NCBI RefSeq assembly: GCF_900188205.1
Contig: NZ_FZOH01000004.1
Location: forward strand, 1-64,000
Source: Geodermatophilus saharensis
GTDB taxonomy: Bacteria > Actinomycetota > Actinomycetes > Mycobacteriales > Geodermatophilaceae
Length of the DNA: 64,000 nt
Direction of reading: 5' to 3'
Below are positions 6,208-49,410 of the stretch, piece after piece (the first letter of the stretch is position 1; each line of letters begins with the position of its first letter). Under the pieces are notes generated by a model. That model had not been told where the DNA came from. It did no database searches and saw only the letters and a program-made list of their open reading frames with translations. A program made the translations under genes and the position numbers.

Positions 6208-8187
6208 TCAGTCGCGTGGATCCGACGGCCGGCCCATCGCCTCCGCCCTCGGCTGCGTCCGCGCGGGGACGGACGGGCCGTCCCCGGGCGATGCCACGAA
6301 GTTGCCGCCCGGGGAGGGCGGCACCTGGCCGTCCGTTCCCGGGCTGCCCACGGGCGGCTGTCCCGGGTCGGCGGTCGTGGCGCCCGACGACGGGTCCGGC
6401 GTCTTCTCCACGACCAGGACGAAGTCGTCGCCGTGGCGACTGATGCCGTCGACGACGGCCTGCTCGATCGCCAGGGAGGCGTAGTTGCCGCGCAGGACGA
6501 TCGGGTCGTGCCGGAGGTCCTTCACCAGGCTCACCGCCAGTGCCGCCATCACCAGGGCGAAGGGCAGCGCCGCGATGATCGTCAGGTTCTGCAGCCCAGT
6601 CAGCGCGGCCCCGTCCTCGCCCAGCAGCAGCATGATCGCGGCCACCGACCCCATCACGACGCCCCAGAAGACGACGACCCAGCGGCTGGGCTCCAGGGTG
6701 CCGCGCTGCGAGAGCGACCCCATGACGATCGAGGCCGCGTCCGCGCCGGACACGAAGAAGATCGCCACGAGGACCATCACCAGCACGGTCGCGGCAGTGG
6801 CCAGCGGGTACTGCTCCAGGACGGCGAACAGCTGGCCCTCGGTGGTGCCCTGACCGGCGATGTCGGCGCCGCCGCGCTGGGCGGCGATCCCGGCCCCGCC
6901 GAACACCGCGAACCACAGCAGGCTGACCAGGCTGGGCACCAGGAGCACGCCCGTGACGAACTGGCGGATGGTGCGGCCGCGGCTGATGCGGGCGATGAAC
7001 AGACCGACGAACGGCGTCCAGCTGATCCACCAGGCCCAGTAGAAGACCGTCCAGCCGCGCAGCCAGGTGGCCATCGCGTCGCCACCGGTGGCCTCGGTGC
7101 GCGCGGCCATCTCGCCGAGGTCGGAGAAGTAGCTGCCGACCGCGTCGGGGATCAGGTTCAGGATGAAGATCGTCGGACCGAGGACGAAGACGAACACCGC
7201 GAGCAGCAGCGCCAGGACCATGTTGGTGTTGGACAGCCACTGGATCCCGCGCTCGATGCCGGAGACGGCCGAGGCGACGAAGGCCGCCGTCAGGATCGCG
7301 ATGATCGCGACCAGGACGCCGTTGCCGACGTCCCCGGCCCAGCCGAGGATCTCCACCCCGCTGCCGATCTGCAGGGCACCGAGGCCCAGGGACGCGGCCG
7401 AGCCGAACAGCGTGGCGAAGATGGCGAGGACGTCGATGACGCGGCCGGCCGGCCCCTCGGCCCGCCGGCGGCCGAGCAGCGGGATGAAGGCGGAGCTGAT
7501 CAGCTGCCGGCGGCCCTTGCGGAAGGTGCCGTAGGCGATGGCCAGCCCGACGACGGCGTACATCGCCCACGGGTGCAGCGTCCAGTGGAACAGCGTGGTC
7601 GCCATCGCCGTCTGGATCGCCTCCGACGACTCCGCCTCGGTGGTGAGCGGAGGCGGCGAGACGTAGTGCGACAGGGGCTCGGCGACCCCGAAGAACATGA
7701 GGCCGATGCCCATGCCCGCGCTGAACATCATCGCGATCCACGAGACGGTGCGGAACTCCGGCCGCTCGGTGTCCCGTCCCAGCGGGATCCGCCCGTACTT
7801 GCCGGCCGCCAGCCAGATGACGTAGATGACGAACGCCGAGGCGAGCAGCACGAACAGCCAGCCCAGGTTGCCGGTGATCCAGCCGAGGGCCGACGTGCTG
7901 GCGGTGCCGAGACCCGTCGGGCTCACGAAGCCCCAGGCGACGAAGCCCAGCGCCATGACCGCGGCGATGGCGAACAGCACCCTGTCCACGGCCCAGTGGC
8001 TGTCGGCGACACAGGGCGGCGGCTCGGCGATCGCCGGGTGGGTGCCGGTCACGGTCACGTCCGTCGCGTGCACGGCCGGGCGGTCCGCGGCGGCCGGCGC
8101 ACCCCTGCCGGACGGCGGATCGGCCCCCACGGCTCCTGACTGGCCCGCCCGGGGAGGAGACGAGGCGGACTTCCGCGGATTCTCCAT
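6208..8187 (-). CDS. BCCT-family betaine/carnitine/choline transporter
   Basis: This 659-residue membrane protein has about 12 transmembrane segments. It carries the BCCT signature around GWTVFYWAWWISWTPFVGLF, followed by IARISRGRTIRQF, and has a hydrophilic C-terminal tail rich in Pro and Gly. BCCT carriers import quaternary ammonium compounds with Na+ or H+. I chose the ATG giving MENPRKSA, which has GGGGA upstream; ATG at 8199 (MGIV) is also possible, while the longer frame would run through the GTTGC motif. Its place at the end of the demethylation locus suggests substrate uptake for catabolism and not only osmoprotection. Confidence 0.93.
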   Translation of the reverse strand: MENPRKSASSPPRAGQSGAVGADPPSGRGAPAAADRPAVHATDVTVTGTHPAIAEPPPCVADSHWAVDRVLFAIAAVMALGFVAWGFVSPTGLGTASTSALGWITGNLGWLFVLLASAFVIYVIWLAAGKYGRIPLGRDTERPEFRTVSWIAMMFSAGMGIGLMFFGVAEPLSHYVSPPPLTTEAESSEAIQTAMATTLFHWTLHPWAMYAVVGLAIAYGTFRKGRRQLISSAFIPLLGRRRAEGPAGRVIDVLAIFATLFGSAASLGLGALQIGSGVEILGWAGDVGNGVLVAIIAILTAAFVASAVSGIERGIQWLSNTNMVLALLLAVFVFVLGPTIFILNLIPDAVGSYFSDLGEMAARTEATGGDAMATWLRGWTVFYWAWWISWTPFVGLFIARISRGRTIRQFVTGVLLVPSLVSLLWFAVFGGAGIAAQRGGADIAGQGTTEGQLFAVLEQYPLATAATVLVMVLVAIFFVSGADAASIVMGSLSQRGTLEPSRWVVVFWGVVMGSVAAIMLLLGEDGAALTGLQNLTIIAALPFALVMAALAVSLVKDLRHDPIVLRGNYASLAIEQAVVDGISRHGDDFVLVVEKTPDPSSGATTADPGQPPVGSPGTDGQVPPSPGGNFVASPGDGPSVPARTQPRAEAMGRPSDPRD

Positions 8188-8202
8188 GACGATCCCCATC
8201 TC

Positions 8203-8220
8203 TGTTGCGTCATTCGAAAC
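8203..8220. promoter_or_regulatory. putative IclR operator upstream of the BCCT gene
   Basis: TGTTGCGTCAT here is identical over 11 bases to the copy at 4124-4134. The 17-mer GTTGCGTCATTCGAAAC (8204-8220) matches the near-palindrome at 4144-4160 at 12 of 17 positions. It lies directly before the BCCT start. Confidence 0.5.
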
Positions 8221-8382
8221 CGGCTTCGCATGAGGGAACCAGAGAGTCGACAAGGGAACAAGAGCCGAACGTGACCTTTTACACAGCCGCAGTCCCAGGG
8301 AAACGCTCCGGGACGCCGGGCGCGACTCGGCGGCGACCGCGACCGGGGAGCCGGCCGGCGGGACCCGTGCGGCGGTGGCGCC

Positions 8383-10680: not shown

Positions 10681-10900
10681 TCACGACCGGCCCGTCGCGC
10701 GGAGGGCGACGTCCCGCAGGGCCGCCCGCACGGCCTGGACTGCGGGGTCTCCCGCCCGGCCGCGGCGCGCCGCCGTGACGATCCGCCGGTACGTCCGCCG
10801 TCCTGGCAGCGGCCGGGCGTCCACGCGCGGACGCCGGCCGCCCAGGCCAGGTCGGGGAGGAGCGGCGCCCGACGCTCCACCACCGGCGCGCGCCCTCCCG
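10681..10900 (-). pseudogene. decayed C-terminal end of a LysR-family regulator
   Basis: On the minus strand one frame reads APLLPDLAWAAG (the usual ALLP..A segment of LysR effector domains). A neighbouring frame continues RVDARPLPGRRTYRRIVTAARRG and then DPAVQAVRAALRDVA before a stop. Together these match the ordered last 70 or so residues of a LysR co-inducer domain, but they are out of frame with each other and no helix-turn-helix part is present. It is therefore a broken remnant. It fills most of the gap between the TetR and hydrolase genes. Alternative: chance similarity in a GC-rich frame. Confidence 0.45.
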
Positions 10901-42625: not shown

Positions 42626-43497
42626 CGGCCGGCGGTGCCGACGACGTCCGCGACCTCCTGCGGCGGGTGGCCGGCTGGGCCGCGGGCCGCCCGGACGTCG
42701 TCGCCGTCGGGCTCGCGGGGTCGCGGGCCCGCGGGACGGCGCGGCCGGACTCCGACGTCGACCTGGTCGTCGTCACCCGCGACCGGGACGGTTACCGCGG
42801 CACCGACCGGCTGGCCGGTCTCCTCGGCGCCGGGGCGGGCGACCTGCGGACCCGGCGCTGGGGGCCGCTGCTCGAGCGGCGCTTCCGGCTGCCCGGCGGG
42901 CTGGAGGTCGAGGTCGGGCTGGTGCCGGAGAGCTGGGCGGGCGACCCGGTCGACGCCGGCACGGCGCGGGTCGTCGGTGACGGGCTCGTCGTCCTGCACG
43001 ACCCGTCGGGACTGCTCACCCGGCTCGTCGGGGCGGTGCGCGCGGGGAATCCGCCCGTCGGCCGGCCTGTTCTCCCGGGCATGACGACCACTCCCCAGCC
43101 CAGGGTGACCAAGACCGACGAGGAGTGGCGGGCCGAGCTCTCCCCGCAGGAGTACGCCGTGCTGCGCCAGGCCGGCACCGAGCGCCCGTTCACCGGTGAG
43201 TACGTCGACACCAGGACCGTCGGCGTCTACACCTGCCGCGCGTGCGGGGCCGAGCTGTTCCGCTCGGAGAGCAAGTTCGACTCGCACTGCGGCTGGCCGT
43301 CCTTCTACGAGCCGTCGTCCGGCGACAACGTGGTGCTCCGCGAGGACCGCAGCCACGGCATGGTCCGCACCGAGGTCCTCTGCGGCAGCTGCCACAGCCA
43401 CCTCGGCCACGTCTTCGACGACGCCCCGCAGACCCCGACCGGCGACCGCTACTGCATCAACTCGGTCTCGATCCGGCTGGTCCCCGCCGAGGGCTGA
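42622..43497 (+). CDS. msrB: nucleotidyltransferase-MsrB in-frame fusion
   Basis: One open frame of 291 residues joins two units. Residues 1-150 are a minimal nucleotidyltransferase with GSRARG and DSDVDLVVV. From Met154 a complete methionine-R-sulfoxide reductase follows, with zinc CxxC pairs (CRAC, CGSC), HLGHVFDD and catalytic RYCINS. There is no stop between them. MsrB might instead start at the internal ATG (43081), but that site has no clear ribosome site, so either a fusion or a leaderless internal start is possible. MsrB repairs oxidised methionine; the NT substrate is unknown. The GTG overlaps the response-regulator stop. Confidence 0.82.
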
Positions 43498-43512
43498 GCG
43501 CTCCCCGCACCC

Positions 43513-43553
43513 GCCCGAGGGCGGTCACCCGGCTCGGGTGGCCGCCCTCGGGC
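43513..43553. terminator. bidirectional terminator-like hairpin
   Basis: An 18-bp stem (43513-43530 with 43536-43553, one G-U type pair) with a 5-nt loop lies 15 bp after the MsrB stop and before the convergent hemQ stop. Confidence 0.8.
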
Positions 43554-43593
43554 GCATCTCGGCGCCGGGCGTCCTGGCTCACACCCACGCGCG

Positions 43594-44310
43594 TCAGGCG
43601 AGGTCGCGGACGAGCTCGGCGACCGGCTTGCGCATGCCGGTGTAGAAGGGGATCTCCTCGCGGACGTGCCGGCGGGCGCGGCTGGCCCGCAGGTCGCGCA
43701 TGAGGTCGACGATGCGGTGCAGCTCGTCGGCCTCGAAGGCGAGCATCCACTCGTAGTCGCCCAGCCCGAACGAGGCGACCGTGTTCGCCCGGACGTCGGG
43801 GTAGGGCCGGGCCTGCATGCCGTGCTCCTTGAGCATGTCCCGCCGCTCCTCGTCGGGCAGCAGGTACCACTCGTAGGACCGGACGAACGGGTAGACGCAG
43901 ACGTAGCGGCGCGGCTCCTCGTCGGCGAGGAACGCCGGGATGTGGCTGCGGTTGAACTCCGCCGGGCGGTGCAGCGCCATCTGCGACCACACCGGCTCCA
44001 GGGAGCGGCCCAGCGTGGTGCGGCGCAGCCGGGTGTAGGCCTCCTGCAGCGCGTCGGGGGACTCCGCGTGCCACCAGACCATCAGGTCGGCGTCGGCGCG
44101 CAGGCCGGCGAGGTCGTAGGTCCCGCGGACGACCACGCCCTTGCCCGCCAGCTCCTCGAACAGCCCGGCGACCTCCTCGGCGGCGGCGGTGCGCTGCTCG
44201 TCGGGGAGCGGCCGGGCGAGCCGGAACACCGACCACATCGTGTACCGGATGAGGGCGTTGAGCTCGTTGGCCCGCTTGCCGGTGCTCTTCGTCTCCGTCT
44301 GCTCGCTCAT
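43594..44310 (-). CDS. hemQ: coproheme decarboxylase HemQ (ChdC)
   Basis: This 238-residue chlorite-dismutase-family protein carries YTMWSVFRL near the start, [20 protein letters not shown] with the expected catalytic Tyr, and the proximal His in [24 protein letters not shown]. In Gram-positives HemQ converts coproheme to heme b as the last step. The start is the ATG with GGGAGG 9 bp upstream, overlapping the DUF4126 stop (ATGA). It is the last gene of the heme operon. Confidence 0.95.
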
Positions 44311-44804
44311 GCCCCCCATCCTCCCGCGGCAGGCGGGAGACCTGCCGGGGCGCTGGGTGTGGCGCGGACCGCAGCGGCGGCGGAGGCCAGCACCAGCACG
44401 TCCTCGGCCAGCGCCGGCCGCAGCGGGCCCAGGCGCGGCGCCGCCCACCGCCGCCACCGGAGCCCGCCCAGCGCGCCCGCGGTGGCGCCGGCCGCCCCGG
44501 CGAGCGCCGCCGCCACTGCGGACCCGCCGGCGCGCCGGGCCAGCAGCGCCCCGCCGGCGGCTCCCGAGAGCAGCCGGAACGCGAAGCTGGGCGGCATCGT
44601 GCGGTCCGGGGTCGCGGGCAGCTTGTCGGCCACCAACTCCCCCGCGACGGCGGCGAGCGCGGCCCACCGCACCGGCCCGCCGGGCGAGGCGGTGAGGGCG
44701 GGCGCGGCGGTGAGGGCGGGCGCGGCGAGTCCCAGGGAGCTGCGGCCACCCGCGGCGATGCCGAGCAGGGCGGCCCGCAGGAGGAGCGAGGCGGTCACCG
44801 GCAC
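44307..44804 (-). CDS. DUF4126-like membrane protein
   Basis: This 165-residue, Ala/Gly-rich hydrophobic protein has several helices and the DUF4126-like [16 protein letters not shown] segment with conserved acids and a Pro-x-x-x-DR motif. It overlaps hemQ by 4 bp, so the two are coupled. Its GTG start lies 16 bp from the displaced copy of the hemG 3' end, showing it once directly followed hemG. The function is unknown; a link to heme or membrane physiology is only suggested by position. Confidence 0.75.
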
Positions 44805-44820
44805 ACCCTGTCAGGTCAGG

Positions 44821-44855
44821 TCAGGCCAGCGCCTCGACCGCCCGGCGGGCGCCGC
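44821..44855. repeat. 35-bp direct repeat, left copy (displaced hemG 3' end)
   Basis: 35 bases are identical to 46225-46259, which are the last codons and stop of hemG. This copy lies 16 bp before DUF4126. The two copies bracket a 1.4-kb segment with two genes. After the 35 identical bases, similarity fades over about 7 more. Confidence 0.95.
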
Positions 44856-44876
44856 AGCTGCAGTGGGCCGGTTCCC

Positions 44877-45572
44877 TCACTGCTTGATGAACGTGCCGCA
44901 CCCGTTGTTCTTGAAGTCCTGCCCCTCGCTCAGGGTGACGGTCGGAAATCCCCCACTCACGATGTCGTTCTCGATGATGTCGTCGCCGTTGCTACCTGAT
45001 CGGTAGATGCCCCAGTAGCAGTCACCGGTGACGGCCTCCGCAGTGCGGTAGGTGCCCGGCTCGACGTCACGACCGACGGTCCACGTGCCCTCGTCGATGG
45101 ACGTCGCGGCCACCTGTTGCTCGACCGCCGTCACGGCCTGTTCGCGTGCTCCCACCGCCGCTTCGCGCTGCGCGATCTCGGCCGCGTACCGGGAGGCCGA
45201 CGCGGCTGCGCTGCTCGCCGTGGCCTGAGCGGCCTCGGCCTCGGACCGTGTCTGCTCCTGGGCAGCCGCCGCACCGGACTGCTCAGCAGCCATCTGGTCC
45301 TGGAGGGACCGGTACTCGTCCGAGTGGGTGGGGTCGAGGGCCGCGACCGCGATGAGGACCCCGAGGACCAGGCCGAGGACCGCACCACCGGTACCAACCG
45401 CCGCGGGCAGCCATGCTCGGGAGTCGTTCGTCACGGGAGGCCGCAGGACGGGTGGCCCGAGGGGGGCCTGCGGACCGGCCGGAGGAGATCCGGACGGCGG
45501 GCCGATCAGGGGCAACCCCTCGTGGATCGAGTCAGGCGTCGACTCGGCAGCGTCGCCGGGCTGCCGTGTCAC
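44877..45572 (-). CDS. membrane-anchored coiled-coil protein with GTWTVG..PGTYR domain
   Basis: This 231-residue protein has a Pro-rich cytoplasmic N-tail (about 1-50), one transmembrane helix (LPAAVGTGGAVLGLVLGVLIAVAAL), a long Ala/Glu/Gln-rich coiled coil (about 85-150) and a C-terminal domain from IDEGTWTVGRDVEPGTYRT to NNGCGTFIK with two cysteines. That last domain recurs in actinobacterial surface and phage-encoded proteins of unknown role. Its GTG overlaps the stop of the preceding gene. It lies in the islet that splits the heme operon, and its sequence is visibly less GC-extreme than its neighbours. Confidence 0.8.
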   Translation of the reverse strand: MTRQPGDAAESTPDSIHEGLPLIGPPSGSPPAGPQAPLGPPVLRPPVTNDSRAWLPAAVGTGGAVLGLVLGVLIAVAALDPTHSDEYRSLQDQMAAEQSGAAAAQEQTRSEAEAAQATASSAAASASRYAAEIAQREAAVGAREQAVTAVEQQVAATSIDEGTWTVGRDVEPGTYRTAEAVTGDCYWGIYRSGSNGDDIIENDIVSGGFPTVTLSEGQDFKNNGCGTFIKQ

Positions 45573-46060
45573 AGGGCACGCGCCAGCGACGCCGCGTCGA
45601 CCGTGGCGTCGACATCCTCGATCGTCGTTGACCCCTCCTCACGAGGGTCGGGGGCGACGGCGGTCGTCATGGCACCGCGGGGCGACGTGGCGACGGCGAG
45701 CGCGAGCCCCAGGACGAGGAGGCCGACCAGCGCAGGGACCCGCTCGTCGTTCGGCACCACGGGCGCCACTGGGGGCGCCACCTCGGGACGGGTGAGCGCC
45801 TCGTTCTGCTGCTCGGCGATGATCGTCAGCAGGTCCTTGGCCACCCAACCGTTCACCACGGCCTGCTGCGGGGCGCCCTGAGTGAAACGCTCGTTGGCCT
45901 CGTAGTCGGCCAGTGCACCGGAGATCTCCCGGCTGCGGTCGCTGACCTGCTCCTGGACCTGCGCTACTGGCTGTTTCGGCTCTGCGGGCTCCATGAGGAA
46001 CCAGACGGCGACTGCGGCGACGGCCAGGATGGCGGCACCCACACGACGGACCACGACCAC
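45569..46060 (-). CDS. two-helix membrane protein of the hemG islet
   Basis: This 163-residue protein has an N-terminal membrane helix (VGAAILAVAAVAVWFL), a polar middle region (QVQEQVSDRSREISGALADYEANERF, WVAKDLLTIIAEQQNEAL) and a second helix (VPALVGLLVLGLALAVA). GTG start with AGGAG 5 bp upstream. No family recognised. It is coupled by a 4-bp overlap to the coiled-coil gene, so the two products probably work together at the membrane. Confidence 0.75.
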   Translation of the reverse strand: MVVVRRVGAAILAVAAVAVWFLMEPAEPKQPVAQVQEQVSDRSREISGALADYEANERFTQGAPQQAVVNGWVAKDLLTIIAEQQNEALTRPEVAPPVAPVVPNDERVPALVGLLVLGLALAVATSPRGAMTTAVAPDPREEGSTTIEDVDATVDAASLARAL

Positions 46061-46115
46061 GACGACTCCTACGACGAGCGGCCGGCCTCGGCTATAGCGG
46101 CACGCAACTGTTCCG

Positions 46116-46144
46116 GCTATCGGCCGGATCGCATCGCCGGTCAA
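46116..46144 (-). promoter_or_regulatory. promoter of the islet gene pair
   Basis: On the minus strand TTGACC (46139-46144) and GATAGC (46116-46121) are 17 bp apart, a good sigma70-like spacing, and start about 55 bp before the first islet gene. The islet therefore may be transcribed independently of the heme operon. Confidence 0.55.
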
Positions 46145-46224
46145 GCTGACGGGATCCCCTTTTCTCAGGGCGTCGGCTCGACTGTCCCGGCACCGCGGAC
46201 ACGTGACTTGCTGGGAGGCTGGTA

Positions 46225-46259
46225 TCAGGCCAGCGCCTCGACCGCCCGGCGGGCGCCGC
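46225..46259. repeat. 35-bp direct repeat, right copy (hemG 3' end)
   Basis: These bases code for the last residues ([11 protein letters not shown]) and stop of hemG. The identical copy at 44821-44855 lies on the far side of the two-gene islet, like the two ends of an integrated element that restores its target gene. Confidence 0.95.
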
Positions 46260-47592
46260 GGATGCACGCCGGCACCCCGACCCCGTCGTAGGCCGCCCCG
46301 GCCACGGCCAGGCCGGGCACCGCGGCCACCGCCTCCCGGACGGCGACCACCCGCTGCGGGTGCCCGACCAGGTACTGGGGCAGCCCGCCGCCCCAGCGGG
46401 CGAGGTGGGTCTCCACCGGCTCGCGGCGCTCGAGGTCGAGCAGGTCGGCGACGTCGGCGACCACCGCGGCGGTGAGGTCGTCGTCGTCGCGCTGCAGCTG
46501 CACCTCGTCGCCGTAGCGGCCCACCGACGCGCGCACCCGCACCAGGCCGTCGCCGGACAGGTGCGGCCACTTCGACGACGACACGGTCACGCCCTTGACC
46601 AGCCGCCCGGTCACCGGGGGCACGAGCAGGCCCGACCCGGCGTCGACCGGCTGCGCCGGGAAGGCCATCGCCACCACCGCCATCGAGGCGTACGGGATGC
46701 CGCGCAGCGGCTCGACGGCGCCCGGCGCGATCCCGGCCAGCAGCCGCGCGGACTTGCCGGCCGGCGAGGTGACGACGACGGCGTCGGCCTCGATGACCTC
46801 CGGCGCCGCGAGCGGGCCGACGGCGACCTCCAGCCGCCCGCCCGCCCGGCGCAGCGCGTGCGCGGGCGTGCGCAGCCGCACCTGCGCACCCGAGGCGCCG
46901 GCCAGCGCCTGCGGCAGCGCCCCGAGCCCGTCGGCGACGGTCACGAACACCGGCCCGTCGGCGTCGCCGCGGCTGCGCGCGCCGGCGTCCCGGGCCGCCA
47001 CCGCGGCGGCGAGCACGCTGTCGGTGCGGGCCAGCTGCGCGGCCAGCGCCGGCATGGTCGCGGCCAGCGACAGGTCGTCGGGCCGGCCGGCGTACACCCC
47101 GCCCAGCAGCGGCTCGACCAGCCGGTCGACCACCTCGTCCCCGAGCCGCTCGCGCAGCAGGTGACCGACCGAGACGTCGCCGTCCAGGCGCAGCGGCGGC
47201 AGCCCCGCCTCGGCCCGCACCCGCGCGACGCCGTCGGGGGTGAGCACCCCGGCCAGCCCGTCGGCCGACGTCGGCACCCCCAGCACGGTGCCCGGCGGCA
47301 GCGGGTGGCGGCCGTCGGGCAGCACGATGGCCGCCTGCGTCGTCGACGGGGCGACCAGCCGGTCGGCGAGCCCGAGCTCGGCGACCAGCTCGAGCGCCTC
47401 GGGGACGCGGGCGAGCACCGCCTCCGGGCCGGTGTCGTACCAGGTGCCGGCCAGCTCGACCCGGTCGACCTTGCCGCCGATCCGCCCGCCGGCCTCGACG
47501 ACGACCACCTCGTCACCGGGCCGCTGCCGCGACCACGCGAACGCCGCGGCGAGCCCGGTGATCCCCGCGCCGACGACGACCAGCCGGCTCAT
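46225..47592 (-). CDS. hemG: coproporphyrinogen III / protoporphyrinogen oxidase (HemG/HemY, CgoX type)
   Basis: This 455-residue FAD amine-oxidase-fold protein starts [20 protein letters not shown] (dinucleotide motif). It contains [15 protein letters not shown] and [18 protein letters not shown] and ends with [18 protein letters not shown], typical of bacterial HemY. In organisms with HemQ it oxidises coproporphyrinogen III to coproporphyrin III. Its ATG overlaps the hemE stop (ATGA). Its extreme 3' end is duplicated on the other side of the islet, but the reading frame is intact. Confidence 0.95.
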
Positions 47593-48644
47593 CGCCGGGT
47601 CAGCTCGTGCACCAGCTCGACGACGGCGGTCAGCACGCCGGGGTCGGTGTCGGGCAGCACGCCGTGGCCGAGGTTGAACACGTGCCCGCGGGCGGCGCGG
47701 CCCTGCTCGACCACGCGGCGCACCTCGCGGTCGACGGTGGCCCGGTCGGCGAGCAGGACGGCGGGGTCGAGGTTGCCCTGCAGCGACCGCTGGGGGCCCA
47801 CCCGCCGCGCGGCCTCGTCCAGCGGCACCCGCCAGTCGACGCCGACGACGTCGGCCCCCGCGTCGCCGATCAGCGCCAGCAGCTCCCCGGTGCCGACGCC
47901 GAAGTGGATGCGCGGGACGTCGCGGTCGCCGAGCCCGTCGAAGACGGCGCGGGAGTGCGGCAGCACGCGAGTGCCGTAGTCGGCCGCCGACAGCACGCCG
48001 GCCCAGGAGTCGAACAGCTGCACCGCCGAGGCGCCGGCGTCGACCTGCGCCCGCAGGAACGTCGCGGCGGACACCGCCAGCCGGTCCAGCAGCCGGGTCC
48101 AGGCCTCGGGCTCGGCGTACATGAACGCCTTGGTGCGGGCGTGCTCCTTCGACGGGCCGCCCTCGATGAGGTAGGTGGCCAGCGTGAACGGCGCCCCGGC
48201 GAAGCCGATCAGCGGCGTGGGCCCGAGCTCGGCGACCAGCCGGCGCACCGCCGTCGCGAGGAAGTCCAGCCGGTCGGGCTCGAGGTCGGGCAGCGCGTCG
48301 ACGTCGGCCACCGTGCGCACCGGGTCGGCCACCACCGGGCCGACCCCCGGCTTGATCTCGATGTCGACCCCGGCCACCACCAGCGGCAGCACGATGTCGG
48401 AGAAGAGGATCGCGGCGTCCACGCCGTGCCGGCGGACCGGCTGCAGGGTGATCTCGGTGACCAGGTCGGGGTCCTGGCAGGCCTCCAGCATCGCCGTCCC
48501 GGCGCGCAGCGCGCGGTACTCCGGCAGCGAGCGGCCGGCCTGCCGCATGAACCACACCGGCGTCCGGTCGACCGGGAGGCCGCGCGCGGCGCGGACCAGG
48601 TCCGAGTCGGCGGGGGACGTCGGGCGGGCGGCAGCGGTGCTCAC
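47589..48644 (-). CDS. hemE: uroporphyrinogen decarboxylase
   Basis: This 351-residue protein carries [21 protein letters not shown] with the substrate-binding Arg residues, [26 protein letters not shown] and a C-terminal [13 protein letters not shown]. It makes coproporphyrinogen III from uroporphyrinogen III in the cytoplasm. It is the first gene of the operon hemE-hemG-(islet)-DUF4126-hemQ and divergent from the DUF3000 gene. GTG start. Confidence 0.97.
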
Positions 48645-48780: not shown

Positions 48781-49410
48781 GTGGAGCCTCGCAAGCTGGC
48801 CGGTCCCCGGGAGGGTGCCGGTGCACGCGCGGCCACGGACCCCCCGGACGACTTCGTCGCGGGTGTCGCCGCGCTCACCGCGCTGCGCGTCCGCCCGGAG
48901 ATCGTCGTCGAGCCCATCCCCGCCCCGCAGCGGCTCGCGCCGTTCGCCCACGCGCTGGGCGTGCGGGTCACCGAGGGCGAGGGCGACGACGAGGTCGAGC
49001 TGGCCGTCGGCCGGTTCATCGTGCTCCACGACCCCGCCGGTCACGAGGCGTGGCACGGCACCACCCGCTGCGTCGGGTACCTGTCGGCCAGCACCGACGA
49101 GCACATGGTCGACGACGCGATGTTCTCCGAGGTCGCGTGGAGCTGGCTGACCGAGGCGCTGTCCGGCTCCGGTGCCGCCGCGCACGCCCTGGGCGGGACC
49201 GTCACCCGCACCGCCTCCACCCGCTTCGGCGACCTGGCCGGCCCCGAGCACACCGTCGACGTCGAGATCCGGGCCTCCTGGACCGCCGCGGACACCGCGC
49301 TGGACCGGCACCTCGACGCCTGGCTGGAGGTCATCGGCACCGCGGCGGGGCTCCCCCCGCCCGGGGTCTCCCTGCTGGGCCCCTCCGGCTCCGTCGACGA
49401 CGGCAACTAG
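48781..49410 (+). CDS. DUF3000 family protein
   Basis: This 209-residue protein matches the actinobacterial DUF3000 family: FVAGVAALTALRVRPEIVVEPIPAPQRLAPFAHAL, VGRFIVLHDPAGHEAWHGT, DDAMFSEVAWSWLTEAL. It is cytoplasmic with no known activity. DUF3000 beside RNase D and heme genes is a common actinobacterial arrangement as far as I recall. GTG start; a short overlapping upstream frame is antisense to hemE. Confidence 0.88.
   Translation: MEPRKLAGPREGAGARAATDPPDDFVAGVAALTALRVRPEIVVEPIPAPQRLAPFAHALGVRVTEGEGDDEVELAVGRFIVLHDPAGHEAWHGTTRCVGYLSASTDEHMVDDAMFSEVAWSWLTEALSGSGAAAHALGGTVTRTASTRFGDLAGPEHTVDVEIRASWTAADTALDRHLDAWLEVIGTAAGLPPPGVSLLGPSGSVDDGN

Follow-up and report, generated by a model that had tools for sequence, protein, structure and literature searches.

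A 1.4-kb islet that carries two coupled genes, A and B, is enclosed by direct repeats of the 3' end of hemG in the window, by which we mean the whole 64,000-nt stretch of Geodermatophilus saharensis DNA that was analysed, and it is an insertion with respect to five congeners in which the same site is empty. A second carrier, G. tzadiensis, has the same gene order and a hemG repeat of its own. We consider that there is about an even chance that the two carriers result from separate insertions of a hemG-linked A-B module by att-like recombination, the recombinase having been lost or having acted in trans. The parts of this arrangement are of known kinds; what is unusual is that two species have sister modules devoid of an integrase at one and the same gene end.

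The islet and its repeat

All of the features described here lie on the minus strand. The islet is preceded by a complete hemG gene, which encodes protoporphyrinogen oxidase (46225..47592; TIGR00562, 215 bits against a cut-off of 97.85; Pfam Amino_oxidase), and is followed by the next operon gene (44307..44804), which comes directly after hemG in the five congeners, and by hemQ, which encodes the peroxide-dependent heme synthase (43594..44310; NF042928, 369 bits against a cut-off of 235). The original prediction, which was made from the sequence alone, described a perfect 35-bp repeat of the hemG stop region that brackets 1.4 kb, and this was confirmed: positions 44821-44855 and 46225-46259 are identical at 35 of 35 bp, and a longer repeat of 42 bp matches at 95% (44821-44862 and 46225-46266). 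The upstream copy (46225..46266) is made of the last codons and the stop of hemG, and the downstream copy (44821..44862) is a displaced hemG 3' end. When the repeat was collapsed in silico, 16 bp remained between the hemG stop and the start codon of the next gene, which is the predicted distance, but the DUF4126 label that had been given to this gene could not be confirmed, as searches of Pfam (E up to 1) and NCBIfam (E up to 0.01) gave no match to it. The hemG-end repeat was the sole direct repeat in the 64-kb window in a scan that used exact seeds of 18 bases, a score of at least 26 and a spacing of 150-8000 bases, while 275 random pairs of 200-nt segments that were 1404 apart had at most 13 exact bases in common. 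A search of the whole 4.89-Mb genome for the 25-bp repeat core with up to three mismatches returned just the two islet copies and no third one. The lower GC content that had been noticed in the islet was also evident, with 70.3% compared to 75.5% in the window and a third-position GC of 0.84-0.86 in A and B compared to 0.92-1.0 in their neighbours.

The other open reading frames inside the islet stretch overlap A, B or the end of hemG. Neither A and B nor the four others that were searched matched any of the integrase families, which agrees with the prediction that no integrase is encoded, and the same four had no match in a PHROG search. The islet had also been credited with its own promoter at 46116-46144; this was not borne out, as nothing promoter-like passed a scan of 44700-46400. 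The leader between the hemG stop and gene A (46067..46224) aligns with that of G. tzadiensis near A and not clearly near hemG. Two candidate explanations of the repeat as an RNA element were rejected. A hairpin at the hemG repeat was dismissed because the repeat stretches of the window folded as RNA about as well as their shuffles (z 1.6 and 0.3), as did those of G. tzadiensis (z 0.1 and -1.8). A tRNA-type or other RNA feature was likewise discarded, as the one tRNA of the window is far off and the four Rfam matches that were obtained for 43000-48000 at E up to 1 were all under their gathering scores.

Empty sites and a second carrier

The hemG gene was present in all 61 genomes, and its locus was read in 35 of them, i.e., in 30 with flanks of up to 1.5 kb, the window's own included, and in five further genomes. 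Longer stretches downstream of hemG (3-16 kb) were read for 18 loci, five of which come from genomes outside the 30. An uninterrupted order of hemG, the next gene and hemQ, which the prediction had proposed as a check, was found in five congeners (G017, G001, G005, G023 and G002). In three others (G009, G010 and G019), the next gene has a homologue (about 50%) that begins some 500 bases further on, and the remaining relatives have different genes behind hemG. Only two of the 35 loci have A and B next to hemG, namely those of the window and of G. tzadiensis DSM 45416 (G006; NZ_PVTG01000011), and the order in the latter is hemG, A, B, repeat, next gene and hemQ. Its repeat comprises 61 nt at 95% when aligned without gaps, or, with gaps allowed, 81 columns that include nine mismatches and one gap. 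No carrier with divergent flanks and without a repeat was seen at hemG, as the one other carrier has its repeat. The proposal that the geometry reflects a site-specific insertion which restores the gene end was thus supported, by the five empty congeners and by the same geometry in G. tzadiensis, as far as the insertion is concerned, whereas a site-specific recombinase can only be supposed.

A tblastn search with five integrase queries found no integrase at hemG in the 18 loci of 3-16 kb. Motif matches in the longer hemG loci were considered as a possible helper integrase and rejected, as by eye they looked like large regulators. The genome to which the window belongs contains six tyrosine-recombinase matches, four of which are above the cut-off. 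No hemG-like site was present around three of the six; the two strongest matches, which we take to be XerC and XerD, and a short match on C11 fall outside that set.

The products of A and B

The claim that the islet holds two coupled membrane genes was upheld, as A and B overlap by four bases (GTGA) and hydrophobic segments are found in both proteins. Gene A (45569..~46066) encodes about 163-165 aa, and the hydrophobic segments of its product, at residues 1-19 and 110-128, flank a loop with the conserved motif GAPQQxVVNGW. Its predicted structure model is poor, and it matched no Pfam model above the cut-off and none in NCBIfam, PADLOC or PHROGs at the limits used. Gene B (44877..45572) encodes 231 aa with a hydrophobic segment at residues 61-79, a long helix at 85-156 and a C-terminal beta domain; its predicted structure has a mean pLDDT of 77.9 and a pTM of 0.47, with the long helix being confident. 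Structure searches revealed no clear relative. Residues 160-230 of B, however, match the NCBIfam family NF053833 (Rv1352/Rv1906c) with 63 bits against a cut-off of 25, and because its C-terminal domain belongs to a named family, B is not wholly undescribed. The earlier statement that the proteins were undescribed was too strong in this respect; A matched no model searched. The likeness to the Rv1352/Rv1906c proteins concerns the last 70 residues of B, which differs from them in its added membrane anchor and long coiled coil and in often being paired with A. A weak resemblance of the C-terminal beta domain to a PHROG whose function is unknown was also seen. A study of culture filtrates (PMC7053730) lists a Sec signal peptide for Rv1352. 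Judging from these sequence features, A would be a small membrane protein and B a membrane-anchored coiled coil whose Rv1352/Rv1906c domain is presumably extracytoplasmic.

Phage cargo or a known defence family was considered for the two proteins of the window and rejected; tblastn against 50,697 phage records gave no match at the limits used, and PADLOC-DB 2.0.0 returned no defence family at E up to 1. Proteins with the B domain occur on 13 IMG/VR contigs and in 13 plasmid records, and A was on no IMG/VR contig. At four Arthrobacter-group loci (L118, L121, L122 and L123; near 7800-8350), distant homologues of A lie directly behind a long gene, which is hsdR by model in L123, has a similar-looking protein start in L118 and L121 and is seen in L122 only as fragments. 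This location directly behind hsdR-like genes is the sole and weak hint of a defence role; the A-B cargo may be an envelope-anchored accessory module, possibly one involved in phage defence.

Distribution of A and B

B was found in 27 of the 112 family genomes at E up to 0.001, with 16 strong matches (E below 1e-36, window included). A was detected at 23 loci in the named collection, nine of which come from Geodermatophilaceae; with the window added, B is present within about 1.1 kb in seven of these ten family loci. Proteins that match A at 77-78% identity are also encoded on metagenome contigs. The order is A-B in the window, G006 and G026, B-A in G003, G087 and G092, and divergent in G061. 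In Nocardioides sp. Root140 (L114), a distant B-like stretch overlaps the start of A. Some of the Arthrobacter-group A loci have toxin-antitoxin-like genes on the other side of A.

The two genes, or B alone, do occur at other gene ends, where the prediction had suggested looking for them. In G. africanus (G003), B and A stand beside a tyrosine integrase in a stretch of ~20 kb that runs from the ychF 3' end to a 15-bp copy of that end. In G107, a lone B is framed by two identical 58-bp sequences, each of which comprises the stop and terminator of an L,D-transpeptidase gene (L076:10009-10066 and 10821-10878); this is the cleanest case, in which relatives, G106 and G109 among them, have the sequence once and the terminator repeat folds strongly (z -6.0). 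Moreover, B of G027 lies in a repeat-bounded stretch of ~10 kb with an integrase and an excisionase, next to tRNA-Pro, and integrase-like sequence was also present in L067, L071, L108 and L109. Within the ychF-linked element of G. africanus, a 30-75-nt hairpin-containing repeat occurs in three places (L066:8975-14098).

Gapped alignment of the 450-nt flanks of 19 A/B loci showed a flanking repeat in four (the window, G006, G107 and G026) and none in the other 15. The repeat of G026 (Blastococcus sp. TF02A-26) was ambiguous and was rejected as proof of an insertion, since a pair of tandem hairpins is already present there in G134 and G135, which carry no insert. A binomial comparison (2/737 versus 17 and 16 loci) was set aside, since the final gapped test covered 19 loci with a different method. 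Duplication of 3' ends was not in excess in general: among 737 called gene tails, a score of at least 26 was reached by four downstream, six upstream and no inverted pairs, with a crude caller that missed hemG and counted the islet only from the side of B, in the upstream column. Most of the other strong pairs are coding sequence of neighbouring similar genes, and among the strong pairs of C16 that were checked, only the hemG islet and the pair at C16:370k were not of this type. The latter, in the same genome as the window, consists of a small lipoprotein-like gene between copies of a stop plus terminator (C16:370358-370994; 38 nt, score 29). A similar geometry was observed in G036, where a GDPD-like gene lies behind a duplicated 74-nt gene end (L095:1049-2488), and in Modestobacter excelsi, where the duplicated 3' end of a luciferase-like gene encloses a DUF4357 gene, with an A homologue alongside (L107:9133-10570).

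One insertion or two

The trees of A and B unite the window and G. tzadiensis as sisters (98/96 and 95/87, respectively). In the hemG DNA tree, the two carriers are not sisters; G. tzadiensis is the sister of G005 (97/93) and the window falls into a group with G010 and G019 (85/95, not starred). The presence of the islet requires two changes on this tree, and the same number was obtained with the starred branches alone. Inspection of the shared 42-nt block by eye showed that three positions separate both of the window copies from both of the G. tzadiensis copies, i.e., the copies group by genome, and that no position unites the two displaced copies. Each repeat is also closer to the hemG of its own genome than to the repeat of the other islet. 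The dS between the two carriers was 0.63 for A and 0.78 for B (0.84 over 211 codons) compared with 0.23-0.35 for eight flanking genes, some of them part-length, and 0.52 for the next gene (86 codons), values that are not strictly comparable because codon bias is weaker in A and B, which raises their dS in comparison with the neighbours; the frame at 48815-49406 (dS 0.08) was left out, as it is not a convincing gene. The trees, the grouping of the repeats and the dS values appear to favour two insertions of a hemG-linked module lineage.

In our preferred explanation, a horizontally acquired A-B module would have inserted at the hemG 3' end and produced two attL/attR-like hemG ends, one of which would complete hemG while the other would be displaced to just behind B. 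A sister module would have inserted separately at the hemG end of G. tzadiensis, and the module lineage would therefore be tied to this gene end. The recombinase, which is not in the islet, may have disappeared together with the remainder of a larger tyrosine-integrase element or may have been supplied in trans. We infer this loss or action in trans from other loci of the family, at which tyrosine-integrase elements carry B, or both B and A, as cargo, and the type of recombinase, excision and topology are presumptions of the same kind. Several observations count against this explanation: no integrase was found at hemG in the 18 longer loci, nor a hemG-like site around three of the six recombinase matches, 15 of the 19 A/B loci are repeat-free and there is no third repeat core; furthermore, the repeats of the two carriers are unlike in length (42 versus 81 columns) and the ends of the insert that adjoin hemG align poorly between them. 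Homogenisation of the repeats, which would mimic a separate insertion, also weighs against it.

Such homogenisation is part of the main rival, namely one old insertion in a common ancestor of these Geodermatophilus species that was followed by several clean losses via the repeats, the copies having been kept alike by gene conversion. The shared site and gene order and the sister relationship of the A and B genes would be expected from it, the repeat eases clean loss, and the G. tzadiensis repeat is not fresh, since it has nine mismatches and a gap in 81 columns. However, it would call for about five losses on the hemG tree by our own count, in addition to conversion across short repeats. The repeat copies group by genome at all three informative positions, and in both genomes A and B retain a third-position GC of 0.80-0.87, compared with 0.92-1.0 in the neighbours. 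We regard a single old insertion as unlikely.

DNA capture at a staggered break, or template switching, could also have duplicated the gene end without a site-specific enzyme, and insertions at gene 3' ends would then be tolerated, as they leave the gene intact. The repeats do vary in length and sequence between the sites (42, 81 and 58 nt) and are located at gene ends or terminators, a like geometry occurs with the other cargo at C16:370358-370994, L095 and L107, and Ku is encoded in the genome. Sister modules at one hemG spot on two occasions would nevertheless be unexpected from random breaks, and we consider this origin very unlikely. Finally, a circle that carried A, B and a hemG end from a related strain could have re-entered by homologous (Campbell-type) recombination, the carried end setting the site; this would account for the site, the repeat, the missing integrase and the sister modules, as well as for the match of the upstream copy of G. 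tzadiensis with the empty site of G005, identical in the 42 bases that precede the stop and the nine that follow it, while the downstream copy has diverged, but it is very unlikely, as it leaves the first arrival unexplained, both of the window copies carry the same hemG variant, so that the donor must have been very close, and 35-80 bp is a short homology for a RecA-dependent crossover.

Relation to known systems and significance

The nearest known systems are the integrative elements and genomic islands that tyrosine integrases place at gene 3' ends, represented here by the one at ychF in G. africanus, which has in common with the hemG islet a gene-end target that is kept whole, direct repeats at both ends and A/B cargo. 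The islet differs in its size of 1.4 kb, in that neither an integrase nor an excisionase was found and in its longer repeat (35-81 versus 15 bp). Thus, of the features of an integrative element, direct repeats of the target and an empty site in relatives were found and an integrase of its own was not. Reuse of the target is suggested by two carriers with sister A and B genes and their own repeats, but an old insertion with homogenised repeats would give the same picture. Another known kind is made up of remnant islets or satellites that lack an integrase and depend on a helper. They resemble the hemG islet in having att-like repeats with cargo only, whereas no helper integrated at hemG was found in the loci read. 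In integron gene cassettes, a gene is likewise followed by a copy that resembles a recombination site, and the strongly folding G107 repeat (z -6.0) is similar in this respect; in contrast, the hemG repeats fold as RNA about as well as shuffles and the repeats are unlike between the loci.

A more far-reaching view is that a minimal integrase-less module lineage, which consists of two envelope genes and a gene-end repeat, targets the hemG 3' end of Geodermatophilus, either via a recombinase in trans or via a new mechanism that forms duplications and by which other single genes of this family, too, have come to lie behind duplicated gene ends or terminators; we consider this distinctly unlikely. 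If the module does re-enter at the hemG end without a recombinase of its own, it would be a very small mobile unit and would offer a clean system for the movement of integrase-free cargo. Moreover, islets with gene-end repeats can be found from the repeat geometry alone, which would help to spot accessory, perhaps defence, genes in core operons.
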